A stretch of DNA of 64,000 nucleotides from NCBI GenBank assembly GCA_021806645.1, contig JAJZQX010000001.1, positions 248,001 to 312,000 on the forward strand, in the 5' to 3' direction. Made by a program: the position numbers and the translations under genes. The notes under the pieces were generated by a model. The model did no database searches. It saw only the letters and a program-made list of their open reading frames with translations, and was not told where the DNA came from. The stretch is from Myxococcales bacterium (GTDB lineage: Bacteria; Myxococcota; Myxococcia; Myxococcales; Anaeromyxobacteraceae). Shown piece after piece: positions 17,874 to 62,755 of this stretch (positions within the stretch are counted from its first letter, which is position 1; each line of letters opens with the position of its first letter).

Positions 17874-18182
17874 ATGAAGACGCTCGCTCTCGCAGTGAGG
17901 ACCGTCTTCGCCACCGCCTGCAGCGGTTTCTCCGAGCCTTCGCCGACGCCGGCGCCGAAGGGGTGGGCGGTGACCACGCTGGCCGGCCAGGCCGGGGCGT
18001 CTGACCGCGCTGATGGGGTCGGGGCGGCGGCGCGCCTCCTTGGGCCCTACGCCAACACCAGCGACGGCGCCAACCTCTACGTCCTCGACGCCGCTCTCCA
18101 CCCGACCTACGCCTTCCGCCGCAAGGTGATTATCGGAACCGGCGAGATCGGAACAGGCGAGGTCGTGCCGATCGGGGCCTAA
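17874..18182 (+). pseudogene. NHL-repeat lipoprotein remnant
   Basis: 102 codons from an ATG preceded by AAGGAG. The start resembles a lipoprotein signal (MKTLALAVRTVFATACSG), then WAVTTLAGQAGASDRADGVG and ARLLGPYANTSDGANLYVLD, which match the first NHL-type beta-propeller repeat of extracellular proteins that usually run for several hundred residues. After LYVLD the sequence loses the repeat pattern and stops at 18182. It is best read as the shortened N-terminal end of a larger gene, although a short expressed peptide cannot be excluded. Its stop overlaps the stop of the convergent methyltransferase gene. Confidence 0.55.
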
Positions 18183-39461: not shown

Positions 39462-42400
39462 CTAGTAGGTGCCGCCAACGGTGTAAGTCTTGGTGCGGTC
39501 GGTGCCGCACGGGCTCACGCCCATGACGCAGCTCCCGCCCCAGGTGGTCGCTCCAATCTTGGCAGGCTGGTGGTTCTTCAGCAGCTGGGTGTTGCGGATG
39601 AAGGCGTAGGGCAAGGCGCCCGCGGTGGCCCAGCGGGTGCCTGTCGTGGGAGTCAGGCCGCCAACCGGCAACGCGTTGACGCCGTGGACGTCCTGCGCGC
39701 GCGTCGGCCGCGGCACGGTGATGGTGCCGAAGTTGGTCTTGCTGCCGTGGCAGATGTTGCAGCCGAAGTTCATGTAGTCGTTCATGCTGTTGTCGACGCC
39801 GGTAGTGATGGCCGAGCCGGCGCCATGGCCGTCGGTATCCGGCACGGAGGTGTCATACCCAGTGTGACACCTGGTGCACAGCGTCACCTTGTTGGTGGTC
39901 GATGGCGTGCCGGTGACCGTCGGCACCCCGCGCAGGGTGTTGATCCCTCCGTGGGCCGTGACCGTCCTGGTGATGACGCCGGTGTCGGCGGGGTCGGAGT
40001 GGCAGTCCCAGCAGGAAAGCAGCGGGCCCCAACTCGTCAGGTCGACCGACGCGCCTCTCGTAGCCGCGTTCCATGGAGCCGCCATGCGCGTCAGCTTCGC
40101 GTACCAGTTGTTCTGCTTCCCGGTCACCGGGTGGTACGAGGAGTTGGTGGTCTTGAACGACTCGTTGACGTCGGCGACGCCGCCCAGCACGCCGTTGGCG
40201 GTGATGCCCACTCCCGTGTAGCCCGCTCCGGCGATGGTGGTGCCGAACGGCTTTTCCGCCGTCCCCGTCGTCGGAACCCGCGCCAGCGGGCTCACCGCGC
40301 CGTTGCCGTCGTGGCACTTGAGGCACTGGTTGATCATGATGGCCTGGACCGCCGGCTCCAGCGTGGCGCTGCCCAGGTTGCGGCTGAACTGGGTGAAGGT
40401 CGCGTCGGTGGCCGTGGTGGTGTAGGAACCCGCGCCGGTTCCGCCGAACGTCACGCCCTTGATGTTCGCCCCGGTGTCCGGATCCCTCAGGTTGATGACG
40501 CCGTCCTTGTGGACGGCCGACGGGTCGCCGGTCGCCGCGTCCCCTTCCATGTGGCAGACCACGCAGTCCCACTTGGTGACCGCGCCGCCGGCGGAGCGCT
40601 TGTGCGACCAGGCCTGGGCGAACTCCGGGACGATGGGGCGCCGGGTGCCCTGGGTGCCGGTGTGGCAGCTGATGCAGTCGCCGCCGCCGTCGAGCTGGCC
40701 GTTGATGTGGGAGAGCGCGTTGACCGCGGCGATGGTGGAGGCCGAGGTCGGCATGGTGGCCGAGTAGCCCCCGTGGCAACTGCCGCACTCGGTGACCGGC
40801 GTCGGGTGGGCGGCCGTGGCCGGCGGCAGGCCGTGGCACGAGCCGCACTGCGCCAGGGTGGTGGCCCCGTTCCAGGCCGGGGCGTTGGCCTGCCCGGCGG
40901 CCGTGTCGGTGCTCCTGGGGTCGTGGCAGTAGACGCTGCTGCAGGTCGGCTGCGTGTAGCCCGGCGTCTTGGTCTCGAAGGCGGTGTCGCCGGCCAGCGC
41001 GCCGAAGGTCAGCGTGGCGCGGGCCACGCCCGTGCCCACGCCGGTGGCGTGAGCCGTGTCGGTGTTGCTGGCCGGCAGCGCGTGGCACTCGGTGCAGGTG
41101 ACGGGCGTCGAGCGCCAGCGCGGCGTCCCGCCCGCCCCGACCAGGTGGGCGCGGTGGGCGCCGACGCCAGGGGCGGTGGTGGCGGTGGCGCCGGTGGTGT
41201 CGGCGCTGGTGGCGGTGCCGGTGGCGCCAGGGGCCGCCTTGACGGTGCTGGTGGTGAGTGTCACCGCCGTGTCGGAGCGATCGCCGTGGCAGGCGGTGCA
41301 GCCGGCCGTCGACTTGGTGATCAGGCCGTCCACGTGCGTGGCCGCCGCCACCGTGGCGCTGGCGTAACCGGCGTGGCAACTGCCGCAGCCGGTGTTCTGC
41401 GGGTGCGGGTAGGTCGGCTGCGGGGCCGCCACCGACTGTCCGTGGCAGGCGTTGCAGGCCAGCTTGCCGGCCGCGCCCCAGGTGACGCTGTTCCCGGTCG
41501 TGCCGCCGGCGAACTGGCCGTGGCAGTAGGTGCTGGCGCAGGTCTGCGTCGCCTGGACGTAGGGACCGGGCGAGGCGCTGGCCGCTATCGCCAGGTTGCC
41601 GAAGGCCACCGGGTTGGCGGGATAGGTGTGCGGCGCCGTGGCGGGGATGAGGCCGGTGTGGCAGTTGAGGCAGGCGAGCGGGCTGGAGAGGGGGCCCGGG
41701 GCGGCGGTGTCGCCCTGGTTCACGTGCGCCAGGTGAGCCCCCACGGCCGCGGCGGTGGTCGCGAAGGCGGGCGGAGCGACCGGCTGCAGCGGGTCGGCGC
41801 CGGCCACGCTCGAGCGTCCGGCGGTGCCGTGGCAGGAGGTGCAGGACAGGTTCGCCACGTTGACGACGCCGTTGAGATGGTTGGTGAGACTCACCGCCGA
41901 GGCGAGGCTGGATGGGCTGGGCGCGTCGGCGTAACCGTCGTGGCAGCTCGAGCAGGCCGTGGAGGTGGTGTGGCCCGTGCCTGCGGGCGGCAGGCCGTGG
42001 CAGCTGCCGCACACGATGTTGCCGGTGGCGGACCAGAGCGGGGTCTTCACCAGCCCGGCGGCGGTGTCGCCGGCACGGGGCAGGTGGCAGTAGTTGGTGC
42101 AGGTCGGGAAGGCGGCGCCGGGCGTGAAGCCTCCGCTGGCCGGCGTCACCGCGTAGCCTCCCGCCGCGGCGGTCGCGCCCCAGAGGATGTTGATCGAGCC
42201 GTTGGCGTGGCGGAGATTGCCGGTGTTGTCGGCGTGGCACTCGGTGCACGTGAAACCGCCCTGGTGGAGCGTGAGCGTGGCCACGTGCTTCTGGTGAGCG
42301 CCGATGGCGTTGCCACCGGAGGTGGCGCCGGTGATGTCGCTGGGCGGGGCGTCGTTGGTGGCGCTGCCGTGGCAGGAGTGGCAGGTGAGGCCCGAGGGAC

Positions 42401-43835
42401 CGGCGCCGACGAAGACGTGGTCGGTGACGCTGACCGAGCTGCTGGTGTACCCGGGGTGGCAGGTGCCGCAGTCGCTCCGCGGCACGTGCCAGCCACCCGC
42501 CGCGGTGTAGGGGAGCGGGATGGCGTGGCAGCTGCCGCAGGTGGCGCCGGTCGCCCCCTCGTTCCACCTGGGCGAGGTGTGCGTGCCACCGGCCAGCGTG
42601 GCGCCGTGGCAGAAGTTGGTGCAGTTGGCGCCGCCGGCGGGGAGCGTGGCGTCGTTCCAGCGGGCCAGGTCGCCGGCGGCGGGCGTCGGCGCGATGCCAT
42701 TGGAGGCGGTGGCGCTCCACCCGACGACGACGGTCCCGTTGACGTGGGCGGTGTTGGTCGGGAGAGTGGGGCCGTGGCAGTCGAAGCACTGCGCGGGCCG
42801 GGCAAGCGACGTGCCGCCGACGTGCGCCTCATGGGCGCCGACCGCGTAGGCGGTGATGGTGTTCTCGCCCTGGCTGCCCACCGGTGGGGCGGCCAGGTTG
42901 GCGCGGACCACGGTGCCGCTGCCGGCGTTGGGGAAGGTGGCGTCGGCGGCCCGGGTGGCGCTGCCGTGGCAGAAGATGCACTCGGTCTGCCAGCTAGGGT
43001 GGCCGTTGGCGGTGTGGCAGGCATTGCAGCTCACGCCGGCCGTGCCGCCGTTGAAGTCGGTGCCGTGGCAGACCGTGCAGCCCTGCAGCCCGCCGGTGGC
43101 GGCCGGGCCGTGGTTGGCCGGGTCGGCCCAGTTGGGAGAGTGCCCGCCGCCGCCGTCGAGCTGGCCGTTGACGTGCTTGCCGCCCCCGACGTTGATGGTG
43201 CCATCGGCGGCGTTGACCGTGTCTAGGTGGCAGTCGGCGCAAGCCGTGGTGTCGGCGTATCCGGCGCCGCCGGGTCCTTGCGGGTGCTGCGCCGGTGGCG
43301 TCACGCCCGCCCCGAAATGACAGGTGCCGCAGGCGCCGGCCGGCGCGCCGCCCAGCCAGTCCGGCGCGTGGTTGGTGCCACCGTGGCCGAGCGAGATGCC
43401 GTGGCAGTAGTTGGTGCAGGTGTGGACCGCCGGAACCCACTCCGGCGGGATCACGTTGCCGGCCGCCGCCAGTTCCTTGAAGGTGACCGTGGCCCGCTGG
43501 CTGGTGTTGTGGCCGGGCGAGGTGATCGACGCCGGCACCACGTGGCAGGCGCCGCAGGAGACGCCGCGCGAGATGTGGCGGGTGTGGGCGCCGACCTCGA
43601 TGGCCGTCTGGGTGTTCTCGTTGGTGAACTGGGCCCCGCCGATGGCGATGGCGCCGGCCGCGTTGCGTGGCAGGCTCCAGGGCGGCGCGCCCGTCTGGTT
43701 GTCCTGGCCGCCGTGGCAGCTGAGGCACCCGCGGGTAGGGTCGGCGGGGGCCGGCAACGGCCTCGCCTTGTCGCACCCGATCAGGGCGAAGACGGAGACG
43801 AGCGCGGCGACGGCAACCAGATGATTGGAGCGCAT
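39462..43835 (-). CDS. Giant multiheme c-type cytochrome lipoprotein (33 motifs)
   Basis: 1457 residues. A lipoprotein signal (MRSNHLVAVAALVSVFALIGC) places it at the cell surface or periplasm. I count 28 CXXCH, three CX3CH (CTNYCH, CTNFCH, CTNYCH) and two CX4CH (CASTYCH, CSSVYCH), giving 33 possible haem sites. The pattern of a CX3-4CH followed by CGSCHGLPP repeats through the protein, like Geobacter CxxxxCH-CXXCH modules. It probably conducts electrons across or outside the envelope. The ATG at 43835 is selected because the lipoprotein signal begins there; the open frame upstream has no homology. No porin gene is immediately adjacent. A possible FNR-type site is upstream. Confidence 0.92.
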   Translation of the reverse strand: MRSNHLVAVAALVSVFALIGCDKARPLPAPADPTRGCLSCHGGQDNQTGAPPWSLPRNAAGAIAIGGAQFTNENTQTAIEVGAHTRHISRGVSCGACHVVPASITSPGHNTSQRATVTFKELAAAGNVIPPEWVPAVHTCTNYCHGISLGHGGTNHAPDWLGGAPAGACGTCHFGAGVTPPAQHPQGPGGAGYADTTACADCHLDTVNAADGTINVGGGKHVNGQLDGGGGHSPNWADPANHGPAATGGLQGCTVCHGTDFNGGTAGVSCNACHTANGHPSWQTECIFCHGSATRAADATFPNAGSGTVVRANLAAPPVGSQGENTITAYAVGAHEAHVGGTSLARPAQCFDCHGPTLPTNTAHVNGTVVVGWSATASNGIAPTPAAGDLARWNDATLPAGGANCTNFCHGATLAGGTHTSPRWNEGATGATCGSCHAIPLPYTAAGGWHVPRSDCGTCHPGYTSSSVSVTDHVFVGAGPSGLTCHSCHGSATNDAPPSDITGATSGGNAIGAHQKHVATLTLHQGGFTCTECHADNTGNLRHANGSINILWGATAAAGGYAVTPASGGFTPGAAFPTCTNYCHLPRAGDTAAGLVKTPLWSATGNIVCGSCHGLPPAGTGHTTSTACSSCHDGYADAPSPSSLASAVSLTNHLNGVVNVANLSCTSCHGTAGRSSVAGADPLQPVAPPAFATTAAAVGAHLAHVNQGDTAAPGPLSSPLACLNCHTGLIPATAPHTYPANPVAFGNLAIAASASPGPYVQATQTCASTYCHGQFAGGTTGNSVTWGAAGKLACNACHGQSVAAPQPTYPHPQNTGCGSCHAGYASATVAAATHVDGLITKSTAGCTACHGDRSDTAVTLTTSTVKAAPGATGTATSADTTGATATTAPGVGAHRAHLVGAGGTPRWRSTPVTCTECHALPASNTDTAHATGVGTGVARATLTFGALAGDTAFETKTPGYTQPTCSSVYCHDPRSTDTAAGQANAPAWNGATTLAQCGSCHGLPPATAAHPTPVTECGSCHGGYSATMPTSASTIAAVNALSHINGQLDGGGDCISCHTGTQGTRRPIVPEFAQAWSHKRSAGGAVTKWDCVVCHMEGDAATGDPSAVHKDGVINLRDPDTGANIKGVTFGGTGAGSYTTTATDATFTQFSRNLGSATLEPAVQAIMINQCLKCHDGNGAVSPLARVPTTGTAEKPFGTTIAGAGYTGVGITANGVLGGVADVNESFKTTNSSYHPVTGKQNNWYAKLTRMAAPWNAATRGASVDLTSWGPLLSCWDCHSDPADTGVITRTVTAHGGINTLRGVPTVTGTPSTTNKVTLCTRCHTGYDTSVPDTDGHGAGSAITTGVDNSMNDYMNFGCNICHGSKTNFGTITVPRPTRAQDVHGVNALPVGGLTPTTGTRWATAGALPYAFIRNTQLLKNHQPAKIGATTWGGSCVMGVSPCGTDRTKTYTVGGTY

Positions 43836-43900
43836 ACGGATGACCTCGGTCGAACGACCAGCCATGGTCGAGGGACAAGCGACGGGCAAGCGGATGCCGA

Positions 43901-43942
43901 ATGATGCCGGTTCGCTGCTCCCCTTGGCTTGACCGAGATCAA
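43901..43942 (-). promoter_or_regulatory. Possible FNR/CRP-type site and -10 element
   Basis: TTGACCGAGATCAA at 43929-43942 matches the FNR consensus TTGATNNNNATCAA at nine of ten fixed positions. On the minus strand CATCAT (43906-43901, four of six to the -10 consensus) lies where a -10 would sit if the site is centred at -41.5. It is about 95 bases before the giant cytochrome start and fits low-oxygen activation. Not proven. Confidence 0.45.
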
Positions 43943-43987
43943 CAGGCGACTGTAGGCCGCCACAATTGTCTGGCGTGACCGTCGCGG

Positions 43988-44725
43988 CTACGGCCAGTAC
44001 CTGCAGGTCTTCACGGCGTGGCAGGAGGCGTAGCAGGTTCGCGGTCCGCTGCAGGTCGGGTCCTGCCAGCCGACCACCGGCAAGACCTGGAGCGAGCCGT
44101 CCGCATGCGTCGCCAGCGCGACGCCGCCAACCCCGGCCGTGGAGTAGCCCACGCCGTGGCAGGCGCCGCAATCGAGCCGGGTCGCCGGCGGGAGTGTTTC
44201 CACGTGGTAGTCGTGCAGGCCCGTGGTGGTGGCCTGCGACTGCTGGTCCCAGTGGCAGGCGCCGCAAGTGAGCGGCGTGGTCCGCGTCCAGAGCGGCGTG
44301 CGGACGGCGCCGCCCATGGCGGGGTCGTGGCAGTAGTTGGCGCAGGTGGGCTGGTCGCGATTCCAGGTGGCCACCACCGTGTCGTTGGCGCCAACCACGT
44401 TGCCAGAGAAGGTGACCATGGCGTGGGGACCGTCGATGTGGGTCCGGTCACCCTCGGCCGGGACCACGTGGCAGGTGGCGCACGCGACGCCCTGGGCGAG
44501 GTGGGCCTGGTGCGCCCCCACCGTCACCTCGGTGCGGGCGGTGAGGCCGTGGGCGTCCATGGGCGGCGCCGCCTGGGCCAGCGCCGTGCCGGCCCGCGTG
44601 GGATCGCCGTGGCAGCCGGCGCAGCCCTGGTCGCCGACCGGGGGCGTGGTGCTGGCGCCGCCGCAGCCGGCGAGCCCGATGGCGCTGATCAGTGCGGTGA
44701 GTACGAGGGAAGGGCTGGTGCGCAT
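43988..44725 (-). CDS. Hexaheme-type multiheme cytochrome lipoprotein
   Basis: 245 residues. The lipoprotein signal ends at GLAGC. Haem motifs are CAGCH, CATCH, CANYCH, CGACH, CGACH and CYASCH: four CXXCH and two CX3CH. The spacing and module order (VGAHQAHLAQGVACATCHVVP, NYCHDPAMGG) are close to the start of the giant cytochrome, so the two genes are likely relatives by duplication. It would transfer electrons at the outer membrane. Transcribed toward the giant cytochrome gene with a 152-base gap. Confidence 0.9.
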   Translation of the reverse strand: MRTSPSLVLTALISAIGLAGCGGASTTPPVGDQGCAGCHGDPTRAGTALAQAAPPMDAHGLTARTEVTVGAHQAHLAQGVACATCHVVPAEGDRTHIDGPHAMVTFSGNVVGANDTVVATWNRDQPTCANYCHDPAMGGAVRTPLWTRTTPLTCGACHWDQQSQATTTGLHDYHVETLPPATRLDCGACHGVGYSTAGVGGVALATHADGSLQVLPVVGWQDPTCSGPRTCYASCHAVKTCRYWP

Positions 44726-51097: not shown

Positions 51098-54000
51098 ATG
51101 TACAAGATCGTCCGCCGCGAGGCCTTCTCCGACACGACGTTCCTCTGGGAGGTCCACGCCCCCGACGTGGCCAAGGCGGCCCAGCCGGGCCACTTCGTCA
51201 TGCTCCGCCTCGGCAACGGCTCCGAGCGCATCCCGCTCACGGTGGCCGACTTCGACCGGGAGAAGGGGACCATCACCATGGTCATCCAGGCGCTCGGCAA
51301 GACCACGCGCCAGATGATGACGGACTACAGGGAGGGGGACGAGTTCGAGGACTTCGTCGGCCCGCTCGGCCTGCCGCAGCACGTCGGCAAGCTCGGCCAC
51401 GTCGTCCTGGTCGGCGGCGGCCTCGGCGTGGCCCCGGTCTACCCGCAGCTGCGCGCCTTCAAGGAGGCGGGCAACCGCGTCACCGGCATCATCGGCTTCC
51501 GCAACAAGGACCTGGTCTTCTGGGAGAAGAAGTTCGCGCAGTACTGCGACGACCTGATCGTCTGCACCGACGACGGCAGCTACGGCAAGCCTGGCTTCGT
51601 CACCCAGGCGCTCAAGGAGCTCTGCGAGAAGGACAAGCCGGACCTGGCCGTGGCCATCGGTCCGCTCCCCATGATGAACGCCTGCGTCGAGACCACGCGG
51701 CCGTTCGGCGTGAAGACCATGGTGTCCCTCAACGCCATCATGGTGGACGGCACCGGCATGTGCGGCTCCTGCCGCGTCACCGTCGGCAAGGAGGTCCGCT
51801 TCGCCTGCGTGGACGGCCCGGACTTCGACGGCCACCAGGTCGACTTCAAGGAACTGCTGGCGCGCCAGAAGCGGTTCAAGGCCCAGGAGACCCGGGCCAC
51901 CGAGGACTACGCGCACGTCTGCAACCTCGAGAAGCAGCTCTTCGAGGAGCAGAAGCGCAACTACAAGAAGATCAAGGAGCTCACGCCCCACCAGGCCAAG
52001 ATGCCGGAGCGCGATCACGTGGAGCGCGCCGGCAACTTCAAGGAGGTCAACCTGGGGTACTCGCTCCAGGACGCCCTCGGCGAGGCGGAGCGCTGCATCC
52101 AGTGCGCCAAGCCAGCTTGCATCGCCGGCTGCCCGGTGGCCATCGACATCCCGCGCTTCATCCGGCACCTGGTGGTGCGCGACATCGACGGGGCCCTCGA
52201 CGTCATCAACGAGGCCTCGATCTTCCCGTCGGTCTGCGGCCGCGTCTGCCCGCAGGAGACGCAGTGCGAGGCCCAGTGCATCATCGCCAAGAAGGTCGAG
52301 TCGGTCGGCATCGGCCGCCTGGAGCGGTTCGTCGGTGACAACGCACGGCCCAAGCCGGTCATCCCGCCGGTCTTCGCCCCCGGCGACAAGCTCGGCAAGG
52401 TGGCGGTCTGCGGCTCCGGCCCGGCCGGACTGGCCGTTGCCGCCGACCTGGTGAAGTTCGGCTGCGACGTCACGGTCTACGAGGCGCTCCACGTGGTCGG
52501 CGGCGTGCTCCGCTACGGCATCCCCTCGTTCCGGCTGCCGCGCGACATCATCGACCGCGAGGTGAAGCGGCTCACCGACCTGGGCGTCAAGATCGAGACC
52601 AACAAGGTCATCGGCAAGACCTTCACGGTGCCACAGCTGATGGGCGAGAAGGGCTACGACGCGGTCTTCCTCGGCGTCGGCGCCGGGGCCCCGGCCTTCC
52701 TGGGCATCCCGGGGGAGTTCGCCGGGCAGGTCTACTCGGCCAACGAGTTCCTCACCCGGGTCAACCTGATGGGTGGCGACCAGTTCCCGCTCAAGGACAC
52801 GCCCGTCTCCATCGGCAAGAGCGCCGTGGTCATCGGCGCCGGCAACACCGCCATGGACTGCCTTCGCGTCGCCAAGCGCCTCGGCACCGAGACGGTCCGC
52901 TGCGTCTACCGGCGCACCGAGGCCGAGGCGCCGGCCCGCATCGAGGAGCTCCGCCACGCCAGGGAGGAGGGGATCGAGTTCTTCTTCCTGCACTCGCCGG
53001 TCGAGATCTACGTGGACCCAGACGGCAACGTGAAGGGGATGAAGGTCGAGGAGATGGTCCTCGGCGACCCGGACGAGAAGGGGCGCCGCAAGCCGGTCCC
53101 CACCGGCAAGTTCAAGGACCTCGAGTGCGACACCGTCATCTACGCGCTCGGCACCAAGGCCAACCCCATCATCACCCAGTCGACGCCGGGGCTCGCCGTC
53201 AACAAGTGGGGGAACATCGTCGCCGACGACGGCAAGACCCAGTGCACGTCGCTGCCGGGGGTCTTCGCCGGCGGTGACATCGTCACGGGTGGCGCCACGG
53301 TGATCCTGGCCATGGGGGCCGGCCGCCGCGCGGCCCGCTCCATCGGCGCCTACCTCGGCGGCAAGAAGCGGAAGTGGCCCATCACCGAGGACGACATGGC
53401 CGCCTTCAGGCCGCCCACGCCGCTCGGCGCGGGTGCCGAGCCCGGTGCCGCGGCCGCTTCGGCCGCCGCCGCCGAGAAGCTCTGCCCCAAGTGCCGCCAG
53501 CCGCTCGACGGTGACGAGGAGTACGTCTGCTGCGCCACCGACACGCTCACCTGGAAGTGCCAGGACTGCGCCAAGGTGAGCGAGGGCTTCGCCTTCCCGT
53601 ACGGGATGTGCCCGGCCTGCGGTGGCAAGCTCGTGGTGGCCGATCCGGCCCGGGCTGCCGACGAGGCCGCGCTCGAGGCGGTTCGCATCGCCTTCGAGAT
53701 CGAGCTGGGCGGCATCGCCTTCTACGGCCGGGCCGCCCAGGAGGCGAGCGACCCGATGCTCCGCGAGCTCTTCGGGCGCTTCGCCGCGATGGAGAAGGAG
53801 CACATGGCGACGCTCTCGCGCCGCTACCACGTGCAGGTGCCGGCCGCGGGCGACTTCAAGGTGGACCGGGCGGCCGTCTACGCCGGCATCCCCAACCGGC
53901 CCGAGGATCCGGCCAACCTGTTCCGCATCGCCATCGCCTTCGAGGAGCGCGCGGTGAAGTTCTTCACCGAGCGCGGCGCGGCGGTGGCGGCCGGCTCACC

Positions 54001-54106
54001 CGAGAAGCAGCTCTACAGGGAGCTTGCGGCCGAGGAGAAGGAGCACGTCGACCTCCTCACCACCGAGCTCGAGCGCTGGCAGGCCGGCAAGCCGGGGCTG
54101 ATGTAG
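51098..54106 (+). CDS. NfnA-NfnB fusion with C-terminal rubrerythrin-like domain
   Basis: 1002 residues joining three parts. Residues 1-280 are the NfnA/ferredoxin-NADP reductase-like subunit: RLGNGSERIPLTVADF for flavin, VGGGLGVAPVYPQL, and a [2Fe-2S] site with Cys222, Cys225 and Cys237. Residues 300-770 are the NfnB/glutamate-synthase small-subunit-like part: Fe-S cysteines from Cys333 (CIQCAKPACIAGCP), then FAD (CGSGPAGLAVAADL) and NAD(P) (VIGAGNTAMDCLRVAKRLG) folds. Residues 796-850 have three CXXC pairs (CPKC, CQDC, CPAC) and 862-1002 form a ferritin-like domain with EKEH (899-902) and EEKEH (979-983). Nfn enzymes exchange electrons between NADH, NADPH and ferredoxin. The tail could reduce peroxide or oxygen using these electrons. 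The start is the ATG after GGAGGGT. Confidence 0.88.
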   Translation: MYKIVRREAFSDTTFLWEVHAPDVAKAAQPGHFVMLRLGNGSERIPLTVADFDREKGTITMVIQALGKTTRQMMTDYREGDEFEDFVGPLGLPQHVGKLGHVVLVGGGLGVAPVYPQLRAFKEAGNRVTGIIGFRNKDLVFWEKKFAQYCDDLIVCTDDGSYGKPGFVTQALKELCEKDKPDLAVAIGPLPMMNACVETTRPFGVKTMVSLNAIMVDGTGMCGSCRVTVGKEVRFACVDGPDFDGHQVDFKELLARQKRFKAQETRATEDYAHVCNLEKQLFEEQKRNYKKIKELTPHQAKMPERDHVERAGNFKEVNLGYSLQDALGEAERCIQCAKPACIAGCPVAIDIPRFIRHLVVRDIDGALDVINEASIFPSVCGRVCPQETQCEAQCIIAKKVESVGIGRLERFVGDNARPKPVIPPVFAPGDKLGKVAVCGSGPAGLAVAADLVKFGCDVTVYEALHVVGGVLRYGIPSFRLPRDIIDREVKRLTDLGVKIETNKVIGKTFTVPQLMGEKGYDAVFLGVGAGAPAFLGIPGEFAGQVYSANEFLTRVNLMGGDQFPLKDTPVSIGKSAVVIGAGNTAMDCLRVAKRLGTETVRCVYRRTEAEAPARIEELRHAREEGIEFFFLHSPVEIYVDPDGNVKGMKVEEMVLGDPDEKGRRKPVPTGKFKDLECDTVIYALGTKANPIITQSTPGLAVNKWGNIVADDGKTQCTSLPGVFAGGDIVTGGATVILAMGAGRRAARSIGAYLGGKKRKWPITEDDMAAFRPPTPLGAGAEPGAAAASAAAAEKLCPKCRQPLDGDEEYVCCATDTLTWKCQDCAKVSEGFAFPYGMCPACGGKLVVADPARAADEAALEAVRIAFEIELGGIAFYGRAAQEASDPMLRELFGRFAAMEKEHMATLSRRYHVQVPAAGDFKVDRAAVYAGIPNRPEDPANLFRIAIAFEERAVKFFTERGAAVAAGSPEKQLYRELAAEEKEHVDLLTTELERWQAGKPGLM

Positions 54107-54129: not shown

Positions 54130-54528
54130 CTACCCGATCTCGACCGCGCTCGGGCTGTAGCAGGAGAGGGCCAGCAGGCTGGTCCGCTGCCACTTGCGCG
54201 CCGGGCTGGAGATGAAGCGCAGCCGGTACTGCTTGTCGCCGGCCGACTGGATCTTCTGGATCCAGTAGATGAAGCTCTTGAAGCCCGACGAGTTGCAGAA
54301 CTCCAGCTCCGTGAAGTCGACGCGCACGTCCTTGGCGCCGGCCTTGAGCAGGTGATCGTGCACCTGGTCGACGAACGGGTTGAGCACGCTGGCTGGGTTG
54401 ACCGTGCTGATGGTGCCGCGGAACTGGACACGGGTGCCCATCGGCTCCACGTGCATGGCCGCCGAGTACTTCTCCTCGGAGACCTGGATGGCGGGCGTGC
54501 GGGCGCCGGGCTTGGACGGGTCAACCAT
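54130..54528 (-). CDS. STAS-domain protein (RsbV-like)
   Basis: 132 residues. The anti-anti-sigma-type STAS fold is suggested by VDFTELEFCNSSGFKSFIYWIQKIQ, where a Ser in NSSG would be the phosphorylation site. It is longer than RsbV/SpoIIAA, with extra residues at both ends. It overlaps the kinase gene by eight bases. In partner switching it would bind the kinase-like protein when unphosphorylated. Last gene of the operon. Confidence 0.75.
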   Translation of the reverse strand: MVDPSKPGARTPAIQVSEEKYSAAMHVEPMGTRVQFRGTISTVNPASVLNPFVDQVHDHLLKAGAKDVRVDFTELEFCNSSGFKSFIYWIQKIQSAGDKQYRLRFISSPARKWQRTSLLALSCYSPSAVEIG

Positions 54529-55042
54529 GGATGCCTCCGGTAACCTTGAGCTGGGGCGCGCGCAGGCGGCCCCATGCGAGGACCGTGATCCGGTTCCCCT
54601 CGCGGGTGATTGAGAGTTCGAGCTGGGCCTCGAAGCGGACGCGTGCCAGGCCGAGCCCGCCGCGCTGGTTCATGGGAGCCTCCGCCATGGCGCGCAGGTA
54701 GCTCCGCAGCGGGTCGGGCTCCTGGTTGATGCGATCGAGCCGTCCCTTGAACTCGGCGAACTGTTCCTCGGTGCCGGGGTTGGAGATGGCGATCTCGATC
54801 CGGTCGGCGGCGGGATCGACCTGCAAGGTCAGGTCGACGCTCTCGCCGCCGGCATGCGGGATGGCGTTCTGCATCAGCTCGTGGACCGCCAGCGCCACCT
54901 GCGCCTCGCGGCTCTCGCCGGGGCAGGCGCAAGCACAGAAGGACTCGACGAAGCGCCGGATCTCGTCCACGAAGACCCAGGGTGGCTTCATCCGCAGCAT
55001 GAGGTAGATGGGGCGGTTGGCTTGGCTCGGTTCAGTCGTCAT
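54521..55042 (-). CDS. RsbW-like anti-sigma/serine kinase (HATPase)
   Basis: 173 residues. GHKL ATPase N-box in ALAVHELMQNAIPHA, then IEIAISNPGT as the Asp-Gly-type G1 region (Asn-Pro here), and RGGLGLARVR for the G2 box. These features mark the RsbW/SpoIIAB family, which phosphorylates an STAS partner and may bind a sigma factor. No sigma factor gene lies nearby, so the target is unknown. Overlaps the phosphatase gene by 11 bases and the STAS gene by eight. Confidence 0.82.
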   Translation of the reverse strand: MTTEPSQANRPIYLMLRMKPPWVFVDEIRRFVESFCACACPGESREAQVALAVHELMQNAIPHAGGESVDLTLQVDPAADRIEIAISNPGTEEQFAEFKGRLDRINQEPDPLRSYLRAMAEAPMNQRGGLGLARVRFEAQLELSITREGNRITVLAWGRLRAPQLKVTGGIHG

Positions 55043-56909
55043 CGATCTTCCGTCTCAGGACCACCACGGTGATGTCATCCGCCTGCACGGCGGCGTGCGC
55101 TTCCACTTCCTGGAACACCCGCGCCAGGATCTCGGCCGCCGGGGCGGGGCGCTCGGCCCGGAGCAGCTCGACCAGCCGGTCCTCCCCGTAGAGGGTCCCC
55201 CCGGAGTCCTGCGCCTCCACCACGCCGTCGGTGATGAAGCAGACGGCGTCGCCGGGCCCGAGCTGGAACTCGTAGGAGACGATCCGGGAGGAGAGGTCGG
55301 CGGTGAGCCCCACCCACGGGCCGACCGGCTCGATCACGTCGACGGTGGCGCCTCGGCGGGCGACGAAGATGGGCTGGTGGGCCCCGGCGGCGACGAAGCG
55401 GCCGCCACCCATGTGACGGGCGGCCATGAGGGTGAGGTAGTCGTCGCGCCCCATCCGGTTCCGGACGTTCTCGTGCACCACCCGGTTGACGGCCGACACC
55501 ACGTCGCGCGGATCGCGGTTGGGGTCGTCGGCGATGGTCCCGTAGGCCGCCGCCTGCGCCATCATCATCACCAGCCCGGAGTTGATGCCATGGCCGGAGA
55601 CGTCGCCCACCAGCACCCAGAAGGTCTCCGGGAAGGAGAGGATGTCGTAGAGGTCGCCGCCGACGTCCTCGGCCGGCTTCATCCGCGCGGCCACCTCGAA
55701 GCCGGGAACCGCCGGATTGCCGGGCAGGATGGCGGTCTGGATCCGGTGGGCGATCTGCACTTCCTTGCGGAGCGCCTCGGTCCGTTGCAGCTCGGCGTGG
55801 GAGCGGGCCACCTCGGCCACCATGGTGTTGAAGGAGCCGACCAGCGCCCCCAGCTCGTCCGAGTAGCGGCCCGGGATGCGGGTGGAGAGGTCGCCGGCGG
55901 CGACGCGGGCCATCGACCCGGTCACCTCGGAGAGCGGCCGGGCCGCCGCCCGCAGCGCCCAGACGCTGACCAGGCCGGCGCCGGCCAGCACGGCGAGGAA
56001 GAGGACGGCGAGCAGGATGCGGAGCGAGCCCAGCGGACCGAAGGCCGAGGCCTCCGGCTCGAGCATCATGGCCGCCCAGCGGGGCGAGCTGGGGTCCAGG
56101 TCGGTCCGCACCGAGAGGAGTGGGACCGATCCGGCGACGGCCGTCCGCACCATGGCGCCCGGGGCGGCCGGGGTCTCCACCACCGACATGATCGGGCCGG
56201 CCTCCAGCGCCGGCGGGACCAGCACCACGGTGCGGGTGGCGTCGTAGACCACCGGCACCAGATCGCCGTCGGCGCCGCGGACCTCGTCGAGGAGCCGGCG
56301 CATGGCGTTGGTGGAGATGGCCGCCACCACCGAGCCGACGATGTCGCTGGCGAAGTCGAGCACCGGCGAGGCCACCAGGATGACCGGCTCCTCGCCGCCC
56401 TCGGCGTCCACCTGCGAGAGCGTCATCAGGTCGGCCGTGGCGGGACCGCCGGACAGGGCCTGATCGACCACCCGCAGGTTGAGCGGCCGGCCATGCTGCG
56501 TGGCGAGGGCCACGCCGCGCCGCTCGCCCGGCGGCCCGGCCCGCACGCCCGCCAGCAGCGTCCCCTCCGGTCCGGTCAGGGCCGCGGCGGCGATCGAGCC
56601 GCCCTGGTCCTGGATGAGCCGTCGCAGGTAGTCCTCGGCGAACTTCGGGTCGCCCGAGTCGAGGGTGAGCTGCATCGCCCCCGCCTCGGACCAGGCGCGC
56701 ACGGTGAGGGCGCGCTCCCGCTGGTAGCGCAGCACCGCCTCGTGGACCTCGCGCGAGCGGGCCTGCAGGTGGTCCTTCACCGCGGCCTCGACCACGCCGC
56801 GGGCCACCCGATCGAAGCCAAAGGCCGCCAGCGCCAGCGCGCCGGCGACCAGGGCCAGCGTGGCCGCCAGCAGCCGCAGCCGGAGCGAGTTGGAGATCCG
56901 CTCGAACAT
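55032..56909 (-). CDS. Membrane sensor with SpoIIE-type PP2C phosphatase (RsbU-like)
   Basis: 625 residues. First membrane helix at about 10-32, a large periplasmic sensor domain (about 40-295, dCache-like), a second helix near 300 (ILLAVLFLAVLAGAGLVSVWA), a HAMP linker with ARPLSEVTGSMARVAAGDLS, and a PP2C phosphatase with EDVGGDLYD, GDVSGHG, ITDGVVEA and ADDITVVV metal-binding acids. It would dephosphorylate the STAS protein in response to a periplasmic signal. The ATG overlaps the small cytochrome stop (TGATG), tying sensing to haem proteins. Confidence 0.88.
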   Translation of the reverse strand: MFERISNSLRLRLLAATLALVAGALALAAFGFDRVARGVVEAAVKDHLQARSREVHEAVLRYQRERALTVRAWSEAGAMQLTLDSGDPKFAEDYLRRLIQDQGGSIAAAALTGPEGTLLAGVRAGPPGERRGVALATQHGRPLNLRVVDQALSGGPATADLMTLSQVDAEGGEEPVILVASPVLDFASDIVGSVVAAISTNAMRRLLDEVRGADGDLVPVVYDATRTVVLVPPALEAGPIMSVVETPAAPGAMVRTAVAGSVPLLSVRTDLDPSSPRWAAMMLEPEASAFGPLGSLRILLAVLFLAVLAGAGLVSVWALRAAARPLSEVTGSMARVAAGDLSTRIPGRYSDELGALVGSFNTMVAEVARSHAELQRTEALRKEVQIAHRIQTAILPGNPAVPGFEVAARMKPAEDVGGDLYDILSFPETFWVLVGDVSGHGINSGLVMMMAQAAAYGTIADDPNRDPRDVVSAVNRVVHENVRNRMGRDDYLTLMAARHMGGGRFVAAGAHQPIFVARRGATVDVIEPVGPWVGLTADLSSRIVSYEFQLGPGDAVCFITDGVVEAQDSGGTLYGEDRLVELLRAERPAPAAEILARVFQEVEAHAAVQADDITVVVLRRKIDDD

Positions 56910-57244
56910 CACCTGAGGCCCTGCTTGGTCGAGTAGTACTTGAGGAACTGGTAGATGTCGGCCGCCTGCTCCTCGTTGATGCCGGAGTTGGGGCGCCTGA
57001 TCATCTTCTTCATGTAACGCTTCCACTCGGCCGCGTCGAACCGGGAGTTGATGGGTCGCGCCACCGGGTGGCACTTGGCGCACTTGCCGAGGAAGACCGG
57101 GTAGCGCTGCTGCATGGCCGGAGGCCAGGACGAGACGTCGATCCGGTCCGGGCCGTCGTCGCGAGGATCCCACTGCGCCTTGGCCGGGGCCTTGGCCCCG
57201 GTGGCCAGGGCCGCGGCCACCACCACCGCCAGCATGAAGTTCAT
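56909..57244 (-). CDS. Small monoheme cytochrome c
   Basis: 111 residues. Short signal peptide (MNFMLAVVVAAALATGAKA) and one haem motif, CAKCH, followed by PVARPINSRFDAAEWKRYMKKM and a C-terminal helix DIYQFLKYYS. The motif and length resemble periplasmic class I-type cytochromes. Overlaps the porin stop by one base and the phosphatase start by one base (TGATG both), which shows tight coupling. Possible electron donor or sensor partner. Confidence 0.85.
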   Translation of the reverse strand: MNFMLAVVVAAALATGAKAPAKAQWDPRDDGPDRIDVSSWPPAMQQRYPVFLGKCAKCHPVARPINSRFDAAEWKRYMKKMIRRPNSGINEEQAADIYQFLKYYSTKQGLR

Positions 57245-58392
57245 CAGAACGCCCCCCCGAAACCGACGTGTCCCGACTGGAACACCGCGAAGCTGGTCGG
57301 CTTCCAGTACTCGTACGACAGCTTCATGTAGGTCCCCGACACCGGCGTGATGACGGTGCCGGCGGTGAACCGCTCGATGGCGGCGTCCGGGGTCATGTTG
57401 GCCACCGAGCCGGGCAGCGGGACGCCGAGCCGTTCCAGCTTGTCGTAACGGTAGACCATGGTGACGTAGCGGCCGAGCGGATGCTCCATTTCCCCGTAGA
57501 ACCCCCGCTTGTCGAAGAAGCCGTCCACCAGCGTCCACTGGTAGCCCGTGGCGTCGGCATCGAGGGCCGTCCTGCGGATGGCGTACTCGCCCCGCAGCGT
57601 CACCTTCCAGAGCTGGAGGGACAGGTCGGCCCCGGCGATGTCGTACTGCAGCCTGGCGGCCCTGTCGTAGCGGCCGCCGGTGTAGCTCCCCCCGAGGCTG
57701 ACGTCGCCGAGGACGTCGCCGGGGTCGCTCGAGTAGGTGAGCGTGACCCGCCCGCCGTAGGACGGCACACTGTTGTTGTCGGTGTACGGCGGGGCGCGGA
57801 GCGCCATCCACTCCACGTCGTTGCTCCCCTTGAAGCCGGAGACGGCGTAGCCGGCATACCAGAACTGCACCCGGCTCCCCAGCCAGGTCTGGCCGTAGAG
57901 CATCAGGCCGGTGTCGACGTAGGGGAGCATGATCACCCCCGAGTTGAAGGAGGTCCGTCCGGCGTACGCCATGCGCCCCATGTCGTAGACGAGTGGCGCC
58001 GAGGTGGTCTTGTGGCCGGACTGGTCGATCCGGTTGGCGTACTCGCCGAACGGGACGTCGAGCCGGCCGACCTGGGCGTTGAACCAGGGCTTGGGCTGCC
58101 AGTCGAGCATCACGTGGTCCATCTCGACGCCGTGGCAGCTGATGCAGGCCTTGGCGGAGAAGGAGAGGGTGTCGTGCACGTCGACGCCGAAGCGCATCGA
58201 GGCGTCGACGGTGATCCCTTGCGGCGCCTTCACCTGGTCGGCGCCCGGCTGCTGGGTGGGTACGACCCAGCTGTCCACGTAGGCCGAGCCGGAGAACTGC
58301 AGGCTGGGCGCCGCCACCGCACGCGCCGCCGCCAGCGCGCCCGCGGCCACGGCGATCGCCGTGGCCAGCCGCATGGCGCTTCGGTCAGTCAT
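57244..58392 (-). CDS. Outer-membrane beta-barrel with one haem c motif
   Basis: 382 residues. A signal peptide (about 1-28) leads to a beta-barrel with alternating strands and a final Phe (GHVGFGGAF), the outer-membrane targeting end. A single CISCH (Cys83, Cys86, His87) sits in the N-terminal strands, just before GVEMDHVMLDW. A haem motif inside a porin is rare. It may form a pore for the haem lipoprotein and the small cytochrome. The ATG at 58392 (GGAGCG before it) overlaps the lipoprotein stop by eight bases; an alternative start is 58374. Confidence 0.82.
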   Translation of the reverse strand: MTDRSAMRLATAIAVAAGALAAARAVAAPSLQFSGSAYVDSWVVPTQQPGADQVKAPQGITVDASMRFGVDVHDTLSFSAKACISCHGVEMDHVMLDWQPKPWFNAQVGRLDVPFGEYANRIDQSGHKTTSAPLVYDMGRMAYAGRTSFNSGVIMLPYVDTGLMLYGQTWLGSRVQFWYAGYAVSGFKGSNDVEWMALRAPPYTDNNSVPSYGGRVTLTYSSDPGDVLGDVSLGGSYTGGRYDRAARLQYDIAGADLSLQLWKVTLRGEYAIRRTALDADATGYQWTLVDGFFDKRGFYGEMEHPLGRYVTMVYRYDKLERLGVPLPGSVANMTPDAAIERFTAGTVITPVSGTYMKLSYEYWKPTSFAVFQSGHVGFGGAF

Positions 58393-60121
58393 TCGGCGCT
58401 CCGCTGCCGATCCAGGTCTCGATGGACAGGATCTCCTCCTCGGTGAGGGGCTCCCCCGCCGCCGGCGGCGGCATCCGATCCCCGTATCCTCCCACGGATG
58501 TCTGCGTTCCGCGGAGCTTGTTGACGAGGTAGCTATTCTCCGGATGCCCGGGCTCGACCAGGTGGCGCGGGGCCTGGACCGATGGGACCGAGACCAGTTG
58601 CGACCAACCGGCGCCGGGATCGAGCGAGACCGGCACGCCGCTGGAAGGCGGCGGGCCGCCCGAATGGCAAGCCGTCGTGGCACAGCGCGGCACGAAGATG
58701 CTCGAGCTGACGGTCGAGTAGGCGCCGCTCCCGCCGAGGCCGCCGATGCCGCCGCCTCTGCGGGACCGGAACTGGGCGTCATCGGGGTCGTTGGTCATCC
58801 GCCGCCGTGCCAGCTCCAGCGTCCAGGTCCCGTTGGTCCAGCGGGCACCGGCCCGGACGTCGTCGCGGTGGGGGCTGGGGCGGTGGAGCACGAAGCCGGG
58901 GAGGGCGAACGGGCCAGCGCCGGTGGGCGAGGTGAGCGGCACCGGCAGGGTGCCGACGGGCGGCGGAGGCGGATAGGCAAGGTACCTCGGGTCCCAGCCC
59001 GGCTCCGGATCGACCAGCTGGCGGAAGAGGTAAGGCGGGTTGAGCGCGTAGTCGCCGACGCCGGTGCCGGTCGCCATGGCGAAGGGCAGGCCCGGCAGGC
59101 CGCCGGTGAGGTTGGCCACCGAGGTGCCGCGGCTGCATGGGTAGACGAACTGGCCGACCCCATCCTTCGCGGTGCAGGCGCGTGAGCAGGTGAGGCCGTC
59201 TGCGGCGTGGCAGCGGTCGCCGGCCGGGCCGGTGGTGTCGATGTGGAGGTCGTCGGCCAGGCCGTAGGGGGCGGTCGAGGCGGCGCGCCAGGCCCAGGCG
59301 TCGAGCCGCTCGCCAGTGGCGCTGGTGCGGCAGGAGAAGCTGGCGAGGTAGCCCGGCGGTGGCCACGGCGTGGGGGCCGGCGTGGGCGGGATGACGAGCG
59401 TCGGCGCCGAGGCGACGTGGCAGGCGGTGGCGCAGCCCCTGGTCGCATGGCTCGGCACGCTGTCGCCGATGGCGAAGGAGAGGTAGGCGGCGTCCTCGGT
59501 CCGGCCCCGGTCCGAGTGCCAGGCCACGCCGTCCCAGCTCCACGGCTGGTGGACGTCGTGCTTGACCGGCGCGTTCCACTGGAGCAGCAGGTAGAGTTCC
59601 CGGTCGTCGAAGGCGGCCCGGACCTTGACGGTGGCCACCCCGTGGTCGAAGGGGGGCAGCGGCGCCGAGCAGCCGGCCGAGCCCTCCGCGGCGGTGGCCG
59701 GCGGCGCGTCGGGCGCGCAGGGGGTCGGGCAGTAGGGGGTGCCGGTGGTCGGGTCGATCACCTGGCTGTGGTGTGTCCTCCACCGGCAGTACCAGCCCGA
59801 CGGCGTCAAGCCGACGGCCTGTCCAGCCGGTGCCAGCGCCACCTCGGTGGCCGGCCAGCCGGCCCACTCGCCGGCGTCGCCGTCGAGGGTAGGCGGCGTG
59901 GCGAACCGGTGGGCCAGCGCCTCGCCCGGCCCGGCGCTCGAGCCGATGAACTTGAGCTTGACGGGGCCGGAGCTCTGCGGCACCAGCCCGCCCGCGGCGA
60001 TCACGCCGATCGACACCACCGTGTCCACGGGCGCGGAGCCCGAGACCGGCCCTTGCACGCAGCCGCTGGCGGCGAGCGCGAGTGCGACGGAGATGAGCGG
60101 GGGAACCGAACGGAACGTCAT
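58385..60121 (-). CDS. Lipoprotein with EB_dh-type haem domain and two unusual haem motifs
   Basis: 578 residues. The lipoprotein box is LAASGC. Residues 70-240 resemble an ethylbenzene-dehydrogenase-type haem b domain or related beta fold (PPTLDGDAGEWAGWPATEV and RAAFDDRELYLLLQWNAP). Haem c-like motifs are CATACH (CX3CH) and CATTACH (CX4CH); no CXXCH is present. The last 100 residues (MPPPAAGEPLTEEEILSIETWIGSG) look like a cytochrome c-type end, as in cytochromes of the planctomycete kind. First gene of the six-gene operon. Likely a surface electron carrier. Confidence 0.8.
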   Translation of the reverse strand: MTFRSVPPLISVALALAASGCVQGPVSGSAPVDTVVSIGVIAAGGLVPQSSGPVKLKFIGSSAGPGEALAHRFATPPTLDGDAGEWAGWPATEVALAPAGQAVGLTPSGWYCRWRTHHSQVIDPTTGTPYCPTPCAPDAPPATAAEGSAGCSAPLPPFDHGVATVKVRAAFDDRELYLLLQWNAPVKHDVHQPWSWDGVAWHSDRGRTEDAAYLSFAIGDSVPSHATRGCATACHVASAPTLVIPPTPAPTPWPPPGYLASFSCRTSATGERLDAWAWRAASTAPYGLADDLHIDTTGPAGDRCHAADGLTCSRACTAKDGVGQFVYPCSRGTSVANLTGGLPGLPFAMATGTGVGDYALNPPYLFRQLVDPEPGWDPRYLAYPPPPPVGTLPVPLTSPTGAGPFALPGFVLHRPSPHRDDVRAGARWTNGTWTLELARRRMTNDPDDAQFRSRRGGGIGGLGGSGAYSTVSSSIFVPRCATTACHSGGPPPSSGVPVSLDPGAGWSQLVSVPSVQAPRHLVEPGHPENSYLVNKLRGTQTSVGGYGDRMPPPAAGEPLTEEEILSIETWIGSGAPND

Positions 60122-60190
60122 GTCGTGCGAACGCCCGGGCGGGCGCTCCTTCCCCCAGGAGCCGGTCCAGGACGCTGTCGGTTTTGGCGC

Positions 60191-60221
60191 ATGGTACCGG
60201 GCGCCGCCGTGTAGGTGTCAA
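60191..60221 (-). promoter_or_regulatory. Possible sigma70-type promoter for the six-gene operon
   Basis: On the minus strand TTGACA (60221-60216) and TACCAT (60196-60191) are separated by 19 bases, slightly long, about 70 bases before the lipoprotein start. The -35 overlaps the GIY-YIG stop codon. A plausible but unproven start for the operon. Confidence 0.4.
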
Positions 60222-61061: not shown

Positions 61062-61739
61062 GTGTTCGAACTCCACTCCACTGAAGACGTCCTCCGTCTC
61101 TCGGCGCTCTCCTCGGCCGTCATCGCCATCGCCATCCTGGTTTACTACCTCGCGGTCCGTCCGCCGCTCGGCCGGGCCACCAAGGTGGTGCTCCTGTTCG
61201 GACTGGGCGTGATGCCGCTCGCCGTGTCGCTCGCCGGCAACATCTCCGGCTTCGAGTACACGCTGAGGCGCGACTTCTGCGGCTCGTGCCACGTCATGCG
61301 CCCTTACGTCGAAGACGCGTCCGACCCGGCCTCGAAGTCGCTGGCCTCGATCCACAGCCGGAACGCCGCCTTCGGCCCGGAGTCCTGCTACACCTGCCAC
61401 GCCGACTACCAGATCTTCGGCGCCATGACGACCAAGGCCAACGGCCTGAAGCACCTCTATTACTACATCACCGAGTACGCCAACACCGGTCCGTACGGCG
61501 AGGGTGGCAAGCCCATCCACATGTACAAGGAGTTCCAGAACGGCATGTGCGTGCGCTGCCACTCCACCGAGGCGCCGCGCTGGGCGGCCGTCGAGGACCA
61601 CGCCGGCATGATCGAGGACATCCGCAAGGGCGACGCCAAGTGCATCGACTGCCACACCGGCGAGAAGATCCACCCGCGCGCCTTCGCGCACGGCGGCAAC
61701 GGCAAGGCCCCGGCTCCCGCTGGCGAGCAGAAGGAGTAG
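61062..61739 (+). CDS. Membrane-anchored tetraheme cytochrome c (NapC/NirT-like)
   Basis: 225 residues. Two hydrophobic segments lie before the haems (ALSSAVIAIAILVYYLAV and VVLLFGLGVMPLAVSLAG), then four haem motifs: CGSCH (Cys73), CYTCH, CVRCH and CIDCH. The spacing and the short anchor fit the NapC/NirT group, which passes electrons from quinol to periplasmic reductases. No reductase is adjacent. The start is a GTG at 61062. A small membrane protein gene follows after three bases. Confidence 0.85.
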   Translation: MFELHSTEDVLRLSALSSAVIAIAILVYYLAVRPPLGRATKVVLLFGLGVMPLAVSLAGNISGFEYTLRRDFCGSCHVMRPYVEDASDPASKSLASIHSRNAAFGPESCYTCHADYQIFGAMTTKANGLKHLYYYITEYANTGPYGEGGKPIHMYKEFQNGMCVRCHSTEAPRWAAVEDHAGMIEDIRKGDAKCIDCHTGEKIHPRAFAHGGNGKAPAPAGEQKE

Positions 61740-62107: not shown

Positions 62108-62755
62108 ATGACGGTCCGGGCGATCGCGGTCGAGGACGACGAGGCGGTCTCGCGACTGATCGCCCAGGTCCTCACCTCCCACGGCATCGAGGTGCTGGGA
62201 ACGGCGGCGACAGGCGAGGAGGGCGTGGCGCTGGCCCGGCAGACCAGGCCGGACGTGGCGCTGGTAGATCTCGGCCTCCCACGGATGAGCGGCGAGGACG
62301 TCATCGCCACCATCCGGCGCGACCAGCCGAATACCGCCTGCATCGCGCTCACCGCGGTGGACATCCCGGCCCGCGTGCTGGCTGCCATGCGGGCCGGGGC
62401 CGCCGGCTACATCCTGAAGCCGTTCCACGCCGCCGATCTGGTCCGCGCGGTCGAGGATGTCCTCAGCGGCGACGCGGCCCCGATCAGCCCGCGCGCCGCC
62501 AAGGTGCTGCTGGCCGAGCTGCGCGGTGACGCCCCCGACCAGAAGCCGTCCTCCGGCCCGGCGCTCTCCAAGCGCGAGCTGGAGGTGCTGGCGCTCCTGG
62601 TCCACGGCCACACCTACGCCGACGTGGCTCAGGCGCTCGGCCTGGCCGAGGGTACGGTCCAGACCTACGTGAAGCGGATCTACGAGAAGATGGACGTCTC
62701 CACCAAGGCCGAGGCGGCGCTGCTCGCCGTGGCCCGGGGGCTGGTGAAGCCCTAG
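62108..62755 (+). CDS. NarL/LuxR-type response regulator
   Basis: 215 residues. Receiver domain with Asp10-11, phospho-site Asp54 (VALVDLGLP) and Lys104 (YILKPFH), then a LuxR-type helix-turn-helix at about 150-205 (LSKRELEVLALLVHG and GLAEGTVQTYVKRIYEK). It would bind DNA after phosphorylation. No histidine kinase is adjacent. Its place after the tetraheme cytochrome suggests control of respiratory genes, but this is only positional. Confidence 0.9.
   Translation: MTVRAIAVEDDEAVSRLIAQVLTSHGIEVLGTAATGEEGVALARQTRPDVALVDLGLPRMSGEDVIATIRRDQPNTACIALTAVDIPARVLAAMRAGAAGYILKPFHAADLVRAVEDVLSGDAAPISPRAAKVLLAELRGDAPDQKPSSGPALSKRELEVLALLVHGHTYADVAQALGLAEGTVQTYVKRIYEKMDVSTKAEAALLAVARGLVKP

Follow-up and report, generated by a model that had tools for sequence, protein, structure and literature searches.

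A conserved six-gene operon of Anaeromyxobacteraceae pairs a probable outer-membrane haem conduit with a partner-switching module

Introduction

The closest described relatives of the system reported here are phosphorylation-based regulators on one side and outer-membrane electron conduits on the other. SiaC acts through its free or phosphorylated state and controls a diguanylate cyclase (PMC8457831), while disruption of slr1658 in Synechocystis results in poorer recovery from iron limitation and in raised levels of the redox factor Pgr5 (PMC7555055). The Pcc conduit of Anaeromyxobacter is encoded by a two-gene cluster of a porin and a cytochrome with 12-14 haems (PMC4245776). Here we describe an operon of six genes in which proteins resembling both groups meet: a surface haem lipoprotein, a haem porin and a monohaem cytochrome are followed by a SpoIIE-type phosphatase, a HATPase kinase and a STAS protein. 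The operon lies on the minus strand of a 64,000-nucleotide stretch, hereafter the window, of the Myxococcales bacterium assembly GCA_021806645.1 (contig JAJZQX010000001.1, positions 248,001 to 312,000).

Little is understood of how metal-respiring bacteria sense the use of their outer-membrane electron route. To our knowledge, the slr1658/slr1659 regulators have no link to outer-membrane haem proteins, and the genome evidence presented below ties a sensor-phosphatase to one conduit.

Results

Six genes kept in one order

Searching 145 genomes of the order for the porin and reading the neighbourhoods at the resulting loci, we found the order lipoprotein-porin-cytochrome-phosphatase-kinase-STAS in 12 genomes from three genera. 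In the window genome (4.14 Mb in 33 contigs, from a genus close to Anaeromyxobacter) the features are the following.

60191-60221, minus strand: promoter-like element before the first gene, TTGACACCTAC-N14-TACCAT, with 19 bases between TTGACA and TACCAT
58385-60121, minus strand: surface haem lipoprotein, 578 amino acids, with lipobox LAASGC, EB_dh domain at residues 159-453 (PF09459, E=2.4e-21) and C-terminal CX4CH domain
59417-59434, minus strand: CX3CH haem motif CATACH of the lipoprotein EB_dh domain, invariant among aligned EB_dh homologues
58664-58684, minus strand: CX4CH haem motif CATTACH of the lipoprotein C-terminal domain, invariant among the C-terminal domains of nearer relatives
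57244-58392, minus strand: predicted 16-stranded haem porin, 382 amino acids, C-terminal Phe (AlphaFold2 predicted local distance difference test, pLDDT, 90; Foldseek matches OmpF, OprP and Omp32)
58132-58146, minus strand: porin CXXCH, residues 83-87, in the hairpin between strands 3 and 4, invariant in 41 homologues
56909-57244, minus strand: small monohaem periplasmic cytochrome c, 111 amino acids, CAKCH, with CxKCH conserved in 14 homologues
55032-56909, minus strand: membrane SpoIIE-type phosphatase, 625 amino acids, with dCACHE-like periplasmic sensor, HAMP (PF00672) and PP2C (PF07228, E=1.1e-36, 127 bits) domains
54521-55042, minus strand: HATPase serine kinase, slr1658/SiaB-like, 173 amino acids (PF13581, E=1.8e-9; NF047703, E=6.9e-6; DUF6272, E=0.0016)
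54130-54528, minus strand: STAS-type substrate protein, 132 amino acids (NF047705, E=6.7e-9; STAS_2 and SiaC weak)

The codon-position composition of all six open reading frames is clearly coding-like. As the initial annotation had reported, the six genes are chained with overlaps of 1 to 11 bases (lipoprotein/porin 8, porin/cytochrome 1, cytochrome/phosphatase 1, phosphatase/kinase 11, kinase/STAS 8). Its range places the genes correctly, although the upstream end corresponds to the promoter-like site and not to the lipoprotein gene, which starts at 60121. Overlaps alone are weak evidence for an operon, since overlapping or touching genes make up 12 of the window's 43 same-strand neighbour pairs; by sequence comparison, the strong evidence is the order kept across other genomes, from which we consider the six genes to be a real conserved operon. 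This conservation is the outcome of the check that the initial annotation itself had proposed.

The arrangement persists where the order itself has been disturbed. In one genome (G023) the genes are permuted to cytochrome-phosphatase-kinase-STAS-decahaem-EB_dh-lipoprotein-porin, on one strand and within about 9 kb. In another (G033) the phosphatase gene is cut by the end of a contig; the rest of it is found on another contig, followed by kinase and STAS genes. In a genome of a different family (G084) a porin-cytochrome pair ends contig C6, and phosphatase, STAS and kinase genes begin contig C66; the two contig ends have an exact 138-base overlap in common, flanked on its far sides by inverted repeats of 27 bases. 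Both ends thereby carry a small element that has these repeats at its termini and contains no evident gene (L043:10900-11200 and L128:1-190). Such an element, judged to be mobile, probably sits between cytochrome and phosphatase in this genome, is probably multi-copy and probably broke the assembly inside the operon. Because mobile elements of this kind usually are multi-copy, the join of C6 and C66 is likely, not proven.

The genes flanking the six-gene block differ between genome groups. Using a full-length phosphatase profile (E < 1e-90), we found the phosphatase in 15 of the 147 class genomes, and the porin is present in all 15; these are the 12 with the six-part order, the permuted G023, and G033 and G084, which contig ends interrupt. 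Among family genomes at least 85% complete, 12 carry porin and kinase together and 6 carry neither one, counts that are uncorrected for shared ancestry. The protein distances of the six genes correlate with each other (r=0.81-0.95, nine genomes). As far as genome comparison can tell, the linkage of the phosphatase with the haem porin is far beyond chance.

A promoter-like element specific to the operon

By comparing upstream regions we found the element TTGACACCYRC-N14-TANSAT. Perfect matches occur in 11 family genomes, every one at this operon and none elsewhere in those genomes, and G016 carries the same element with a spacer shorter by one base. The remaining matches have two mismatches and a rate not far above that of the backward control. 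Only one copy is present, before the first gene, with no second copy inside the operon, a position that supports a single putative transcription start. A sigma-70 scan with 16-18 base spacers returned no promoter, and a search of the upstream regions for sigma-54 promoters returned no consistent site.

Haem proteins of the operon

The haem motifs of the lipoprotein, which the initial annotation had rightly called a haem protein, are CX3CH and CX4CH, and CXXCH is absent from it. In other Anaeromyxobacter genomes the lipoprotein is split into two genes or lacks EB_dh, and one genome (G014) has the operon with EB_dh as a separate gene. In many of these the operon is adjoined by a decahaem cytochrome of 820-880 amino acids, of MtrC/MtrF type (PF22113, one example tested), and in one (L051/L085) the decahaem protein and the CX4CH lipoprotein domain are fused in a single chain of 954 amino acids. 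These arrangements suggest that EB_dh and the decahaem protein can replace each other as surface modules mounted on a common base.

The porin bears out its earlier description as a porin with a haem motif, both in its 16-stranded model and in the invariance of its CXXCH. No Pfam family matched it, a Protein Data Bank (PDB) sequence search gave no useful relative, and the topology of the model would put the CXXCH on the outer side. For the small cytochrome only weak cytochrome matches were obtained in Pfam. The surroundings of the operon in relatives hold NrfA-type and octahaem cytochromes and, at one locus (L038), an apparent two-gene Pcc conduit as described for Anaeromyxobacter (PMC4245776). 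Based on the haem motifs, the porin fold, the adjacent or fused decahaem cytochromes and the cytochrome surroundings, we infer, with good support, a role in outer-membrane electron transfer, and the haem half of the operon is probably an outer-membrane electron conduit.

Several further haem loci were seen. In the window, a NapC/NirT-type tetrahaem cytochrome (61062-61739, plus strand; PF03264, E=2.4e-15) may serve the conduit as an inner-membrane quinol dehydrogenase, and a LuxR-type response regulator (62108-62755) lies after it. Two multihaem lipoprotein-like proteins of 1277 and 245 amino acids with Geobacter-type CxxxxCH...CXXCH motifs (PF09698) are encoded at 40002-44725 on the minus strand. 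G023 has another conduit set beside the switch-bearing one (L041:3290-8000); it consists of lipoprotein-porin-cytochrome-decahaem and has no switch genes, and a CHASE8/HAMP hybrid histidine kinase lies between the two sets (L041 9117-11033).

A phosphatase with a predicted dCACHE sensor

The catalytic motifs of the phosphatase, DVGGD, GDVSGHG, TDG and DD.T, are invariant in 11 homologues, with the metal-binding motifs intact. It is the only SpoIIE domain protein in the window genome (G000), and likewise in G035, G019 and G023 of the family, so that knock-out phenotypes would be cleanly readable there. AlphaFold2 models its N-terminal 372 residues as a long helix and a double alpha/beta domain (pLDDT 81). 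The best Foldseek matches of this region are Tlp3, DctB, PctA and CtaA (template modelling score about 0.55-0.7 by target length), which belong to the dCACHE sensors of amino acids and dicarboxylates, and we predict a dCACHE fold for it. Because this predicted fold resembles that of DctB and of amino-acid chemoreceptors, a small-molecule signal appears more likely than the redox state of a cytochrome. The large periplasmic sensor proposed in the initial annotation is retained, and a substrate-type ligand fits it, whereas the sensing of redox state, also proposed there, is disfavoured by the fold.

We nevertheless considered redox sensing by direct contact, in which the periplasmic domain docks a haem protein, the monohaem cytochrome or a different one, and signals the redox state of that protein. 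The cytochrome and phosphatase genes overlap by 1 base and are still adjacent in the permuted G023, and invariant cysteines in the kinase and in the STAS protein would permit redox input from the cytoplasmic side; with a sensor that is dCACHE-like, has no haem motif and matches small-molecule sensors, however, we regard such docking as unlikely.

A kinase and a STAS protein closer to Sia than to Rsb proteins

The kinase is a GHKL-type HATPase (PF13581, 38.1 bits against a cut-off of 27.4) with an invariant N box (ELMQN) and G2 box (GGLGLAR). Its C36 and C38 (FCxCA) are invariant, and the divergent G084 kinase keeps the first Cys in an FC motif. In the STAS protein, CNSSGFK is invariant around the expected phosphoserine S80/S81, as are the cysteines C78 and C123, and the STAS Pfam models score below cut-off. 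A PDB sequence search with both proteins gave no useful relative.

The best curated matches are NF047703 for the kinase (25.6 bits) and NF047705 for the STAS protein (36 bits), against a cut-off of 100. The Sia families also score below cut-off (SiaA 73.2 bits against 700, SiaB DUF6272 18.5 against 26.6, SiaC DUF1987 17.2 against 24.5). RsbW reaches 15.3 bits against 145 and the anti-anti-sigma family 11.6 against 53.45, far below cut-off, and we rejected the RsbW/RsbV identity of the two proteins on these scores. By sequence, then, the kinase, annotated initially as RsbW-type, and the STAS protein are nearest to slr1658/slr1659 and SiaB/SiaC, and a sigma factor is therefore not the default target.

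Under a different hypothesis, the switch acts via a sigma factor, in the manner of RsbU/W/V, to control how a stress regulon or the operon itself is transcribed, and merely shares the promoter of the conduit. SpoIIE, HATPase and STAS are indeed the three RsbU/W/V domain types, and the element has an unusual 19-base spacer and is confined to this operon, as expected under autoregulation. We hold this to be improbable, given the kinase and STAS scores and given that, in relatives, the neighbouring genes that we read include no sigma or anti-sigma gene, either within the switch or immediately next to it.

The operon contains no diguanylate cyclase; elsewhere in the window genome there are 10 GGDEF matches, of which 9 are over cut-off. 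No conserved regulator or effector stands beside the STAS gene in the relatives read, where the downstream genes vary (NrfHA, an octahaem cytochrome, unrelated genes). Since these differ between groups, we conclude that there is no target in cis.

Distribution of conduit and switch

Beyond the switch-bearing set, porin and cytochrome, often with a lipoprotein, are widespread in Myxococcota without the switch. A scan of 84,980 species with the porin matched only Myxococcota or unplaced deltaproteobacterial or bacterial metagenome-assembled genomes, with no match in named Desulfobacterota. The six-part order is seen only in Anaeromyxobacteraceae and one other Myxococcota lineage; the initial annotation had named Desulfobacterota beside Myxococcota as places to look for it. 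As the porin and cytochrome set is widespread without the switch, the conduit looks like the older and wider unit, and the switch appears to have been added to it in two lineages or transferred between them. The porin family with an invariant haem motif inside the barrel, spread through Myxococcota, forms a separate subject of its own.

That conduit and switch are independent sets, neighbours by descent only and with no functional coupling, would suit the confinement of most members to one family and the many other Myxococcota with the conduit half alone, but is very improbable in our view, as the flanks turn over while the block stays, G023 is permuted yet clustered, and the subfamily-specific phosphatase never occurs without the porin in 147 genomes, both being missing in g4-g6.

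Other features of the window

Convergent with the operon is a gene for 1002 amino acids (51098-54106, plus strand) with ferredoxin-reductase/DHODB-like and glutamate-synthase-small-subunit-like parts and a rubrerythrin-like C-terminus; it holds this position in two further genomes of the genus (L032, L200). A fused restriction-modification enzyme of 812 amino acids, with an N-terminal XhoI-like nuclease and an Eco57I/N6 methylase domain, is encoded at 18182-20617 on the minus strand.

Discussion

Gene set, order, co-inheritance, promoter-like element and motifs were read directly from the genomes, and the folds were modelled. The reading that we prefer, at roughly even chances, is that the six genes form one operon for a small outer-membrane electron conduit and for the phosphorylation switch that belongs to it. 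The lipoprotein, or the decahaem MtrC-type cytochrome in relatives, would contact an external electron donor or acceptor, and the porin haem and the monohaem cytochrome would relay electrons between the surface and the periplasm. The ligand of the dCACHE domain of the phosphatase would be a small molecule in the periplasm, probably one that this respiration consumes or gives off, and its binding would alter phosphatase activity through HAMP. The HATPase kinase would phosphorylate the STAS protein on the conserved CNSSG serine (Ser80/81), the phosphatase would remove the phosphate, and the free STAS protein would bind and control a target encoded elsewhere, like SiaC with its diguanylate cyclase; by this analogy the target can fairly be guessed to be an enzyme, for example a diguanylate cyclase. 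Production of the conduit would thereby also yield a signalling unit that informs the cytoplasm about the conduit substrate.

More tentatively, the operon may represent a dedicated phospho-signalling circuit, in which a covalent-haem porin conduit of a new class is accompanied, on the same mRNA, by a partner switch that reports conduit use to a cytoplasmic effector and so couples external electron flow to behaviour, for example attachment or motility on minerals.

A number of points weigh against our preferred reading. Electron transfer, ligand binding, phosphorylation and control of a target are all proposed from sequence and modelled folds. A single haem in the barrel cannot alone bridge the outer membrane, and no target gene consistently adjoins the operon. 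In the kinase an invariant Asn (N88) replaces the G1-box Asp of RsbW, which makes its kinase activity putative; an Asn at this position is usual in the SiaB-like group. The species set amounts to one family and one genome, and a few evolutionary events may explain the co-occurrence; elsewhere in Myxococcota, conduits with this type of porin mostly lack the switch.

Comparison with known systems

In line with the initial annotation, which knew of no described system with this layout, our literature search, outside which lay subscription papers and preprints, found none in which partner switching and extracellular electron transfer are combined. Searching for the domain names together with Geobacter gave nothing relevant, and the A. 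dehalogenans 2CP-C genome paper mentions neither SpoIIE nor porins (PMC2330069).

Like Pcc and MtrCAB, the operon co-encodes a porin, a surface haem lipoprotein and a periplasmic cytochrome, and in relatives it adjoins an MtrC-type decahaem gene. It differs from them in its periplasmic partner, which has one haem motif and not 8-14 haems, and in the haem motif within the porin itself, and we do not assign it to this group; the Anaeromyxobacter Pcc is a different cluster (PMC4245776). Like Cyc2 (PMC8406198), the porin combines a signal peptide, a 16-stranded barrel and just one CXXCH in the same chain. Its haem motif, however, is placed between strands 3 and 4 whereas that of Cyc2 is in an N-terminal domain, the motif AXPXFAR[Q/K][T/Y] is absent, and DVHDTLSFSAKA precedes the CXXCH, inside the barrel; we therefore rejected membership of Cyc2.

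Other Myxococcota carry clusters of a HATPase kinase, a STAS protein, a protein of about 450 amino acids and a SpoIIE phosphatase (L131-L140). These have the same three switch families, but with a shorter phosphatase, an extra conserved gene, no haem genes and a kinase without FCxCA. The slr1658/slr1659 superfamily, of cyanobacteria and others, gives the best curated match for kinase and STAS protein, yet below cut-off, and the iron and Pgr5 phenotype of slr1658 is a fitting, if loose, parallel. For the full module, the best similarity is to SiaABC(D) of Pseudomonas aeruginosa, which likewise clusters the genes for a membrane PP2C phosphatase with HAMP, a HATPase-type kinase and a STAS-like substrate (SiaA, E=1.7e-20; DUF6272 and SiaC weak). 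The operon described here stays below all three Sia family cut-offs, has no diguanylate cyclase gene and is linked to electron transfer. Partner switching itself is known; what is new is a variant of it that is fixed to an unusual haem conduit.

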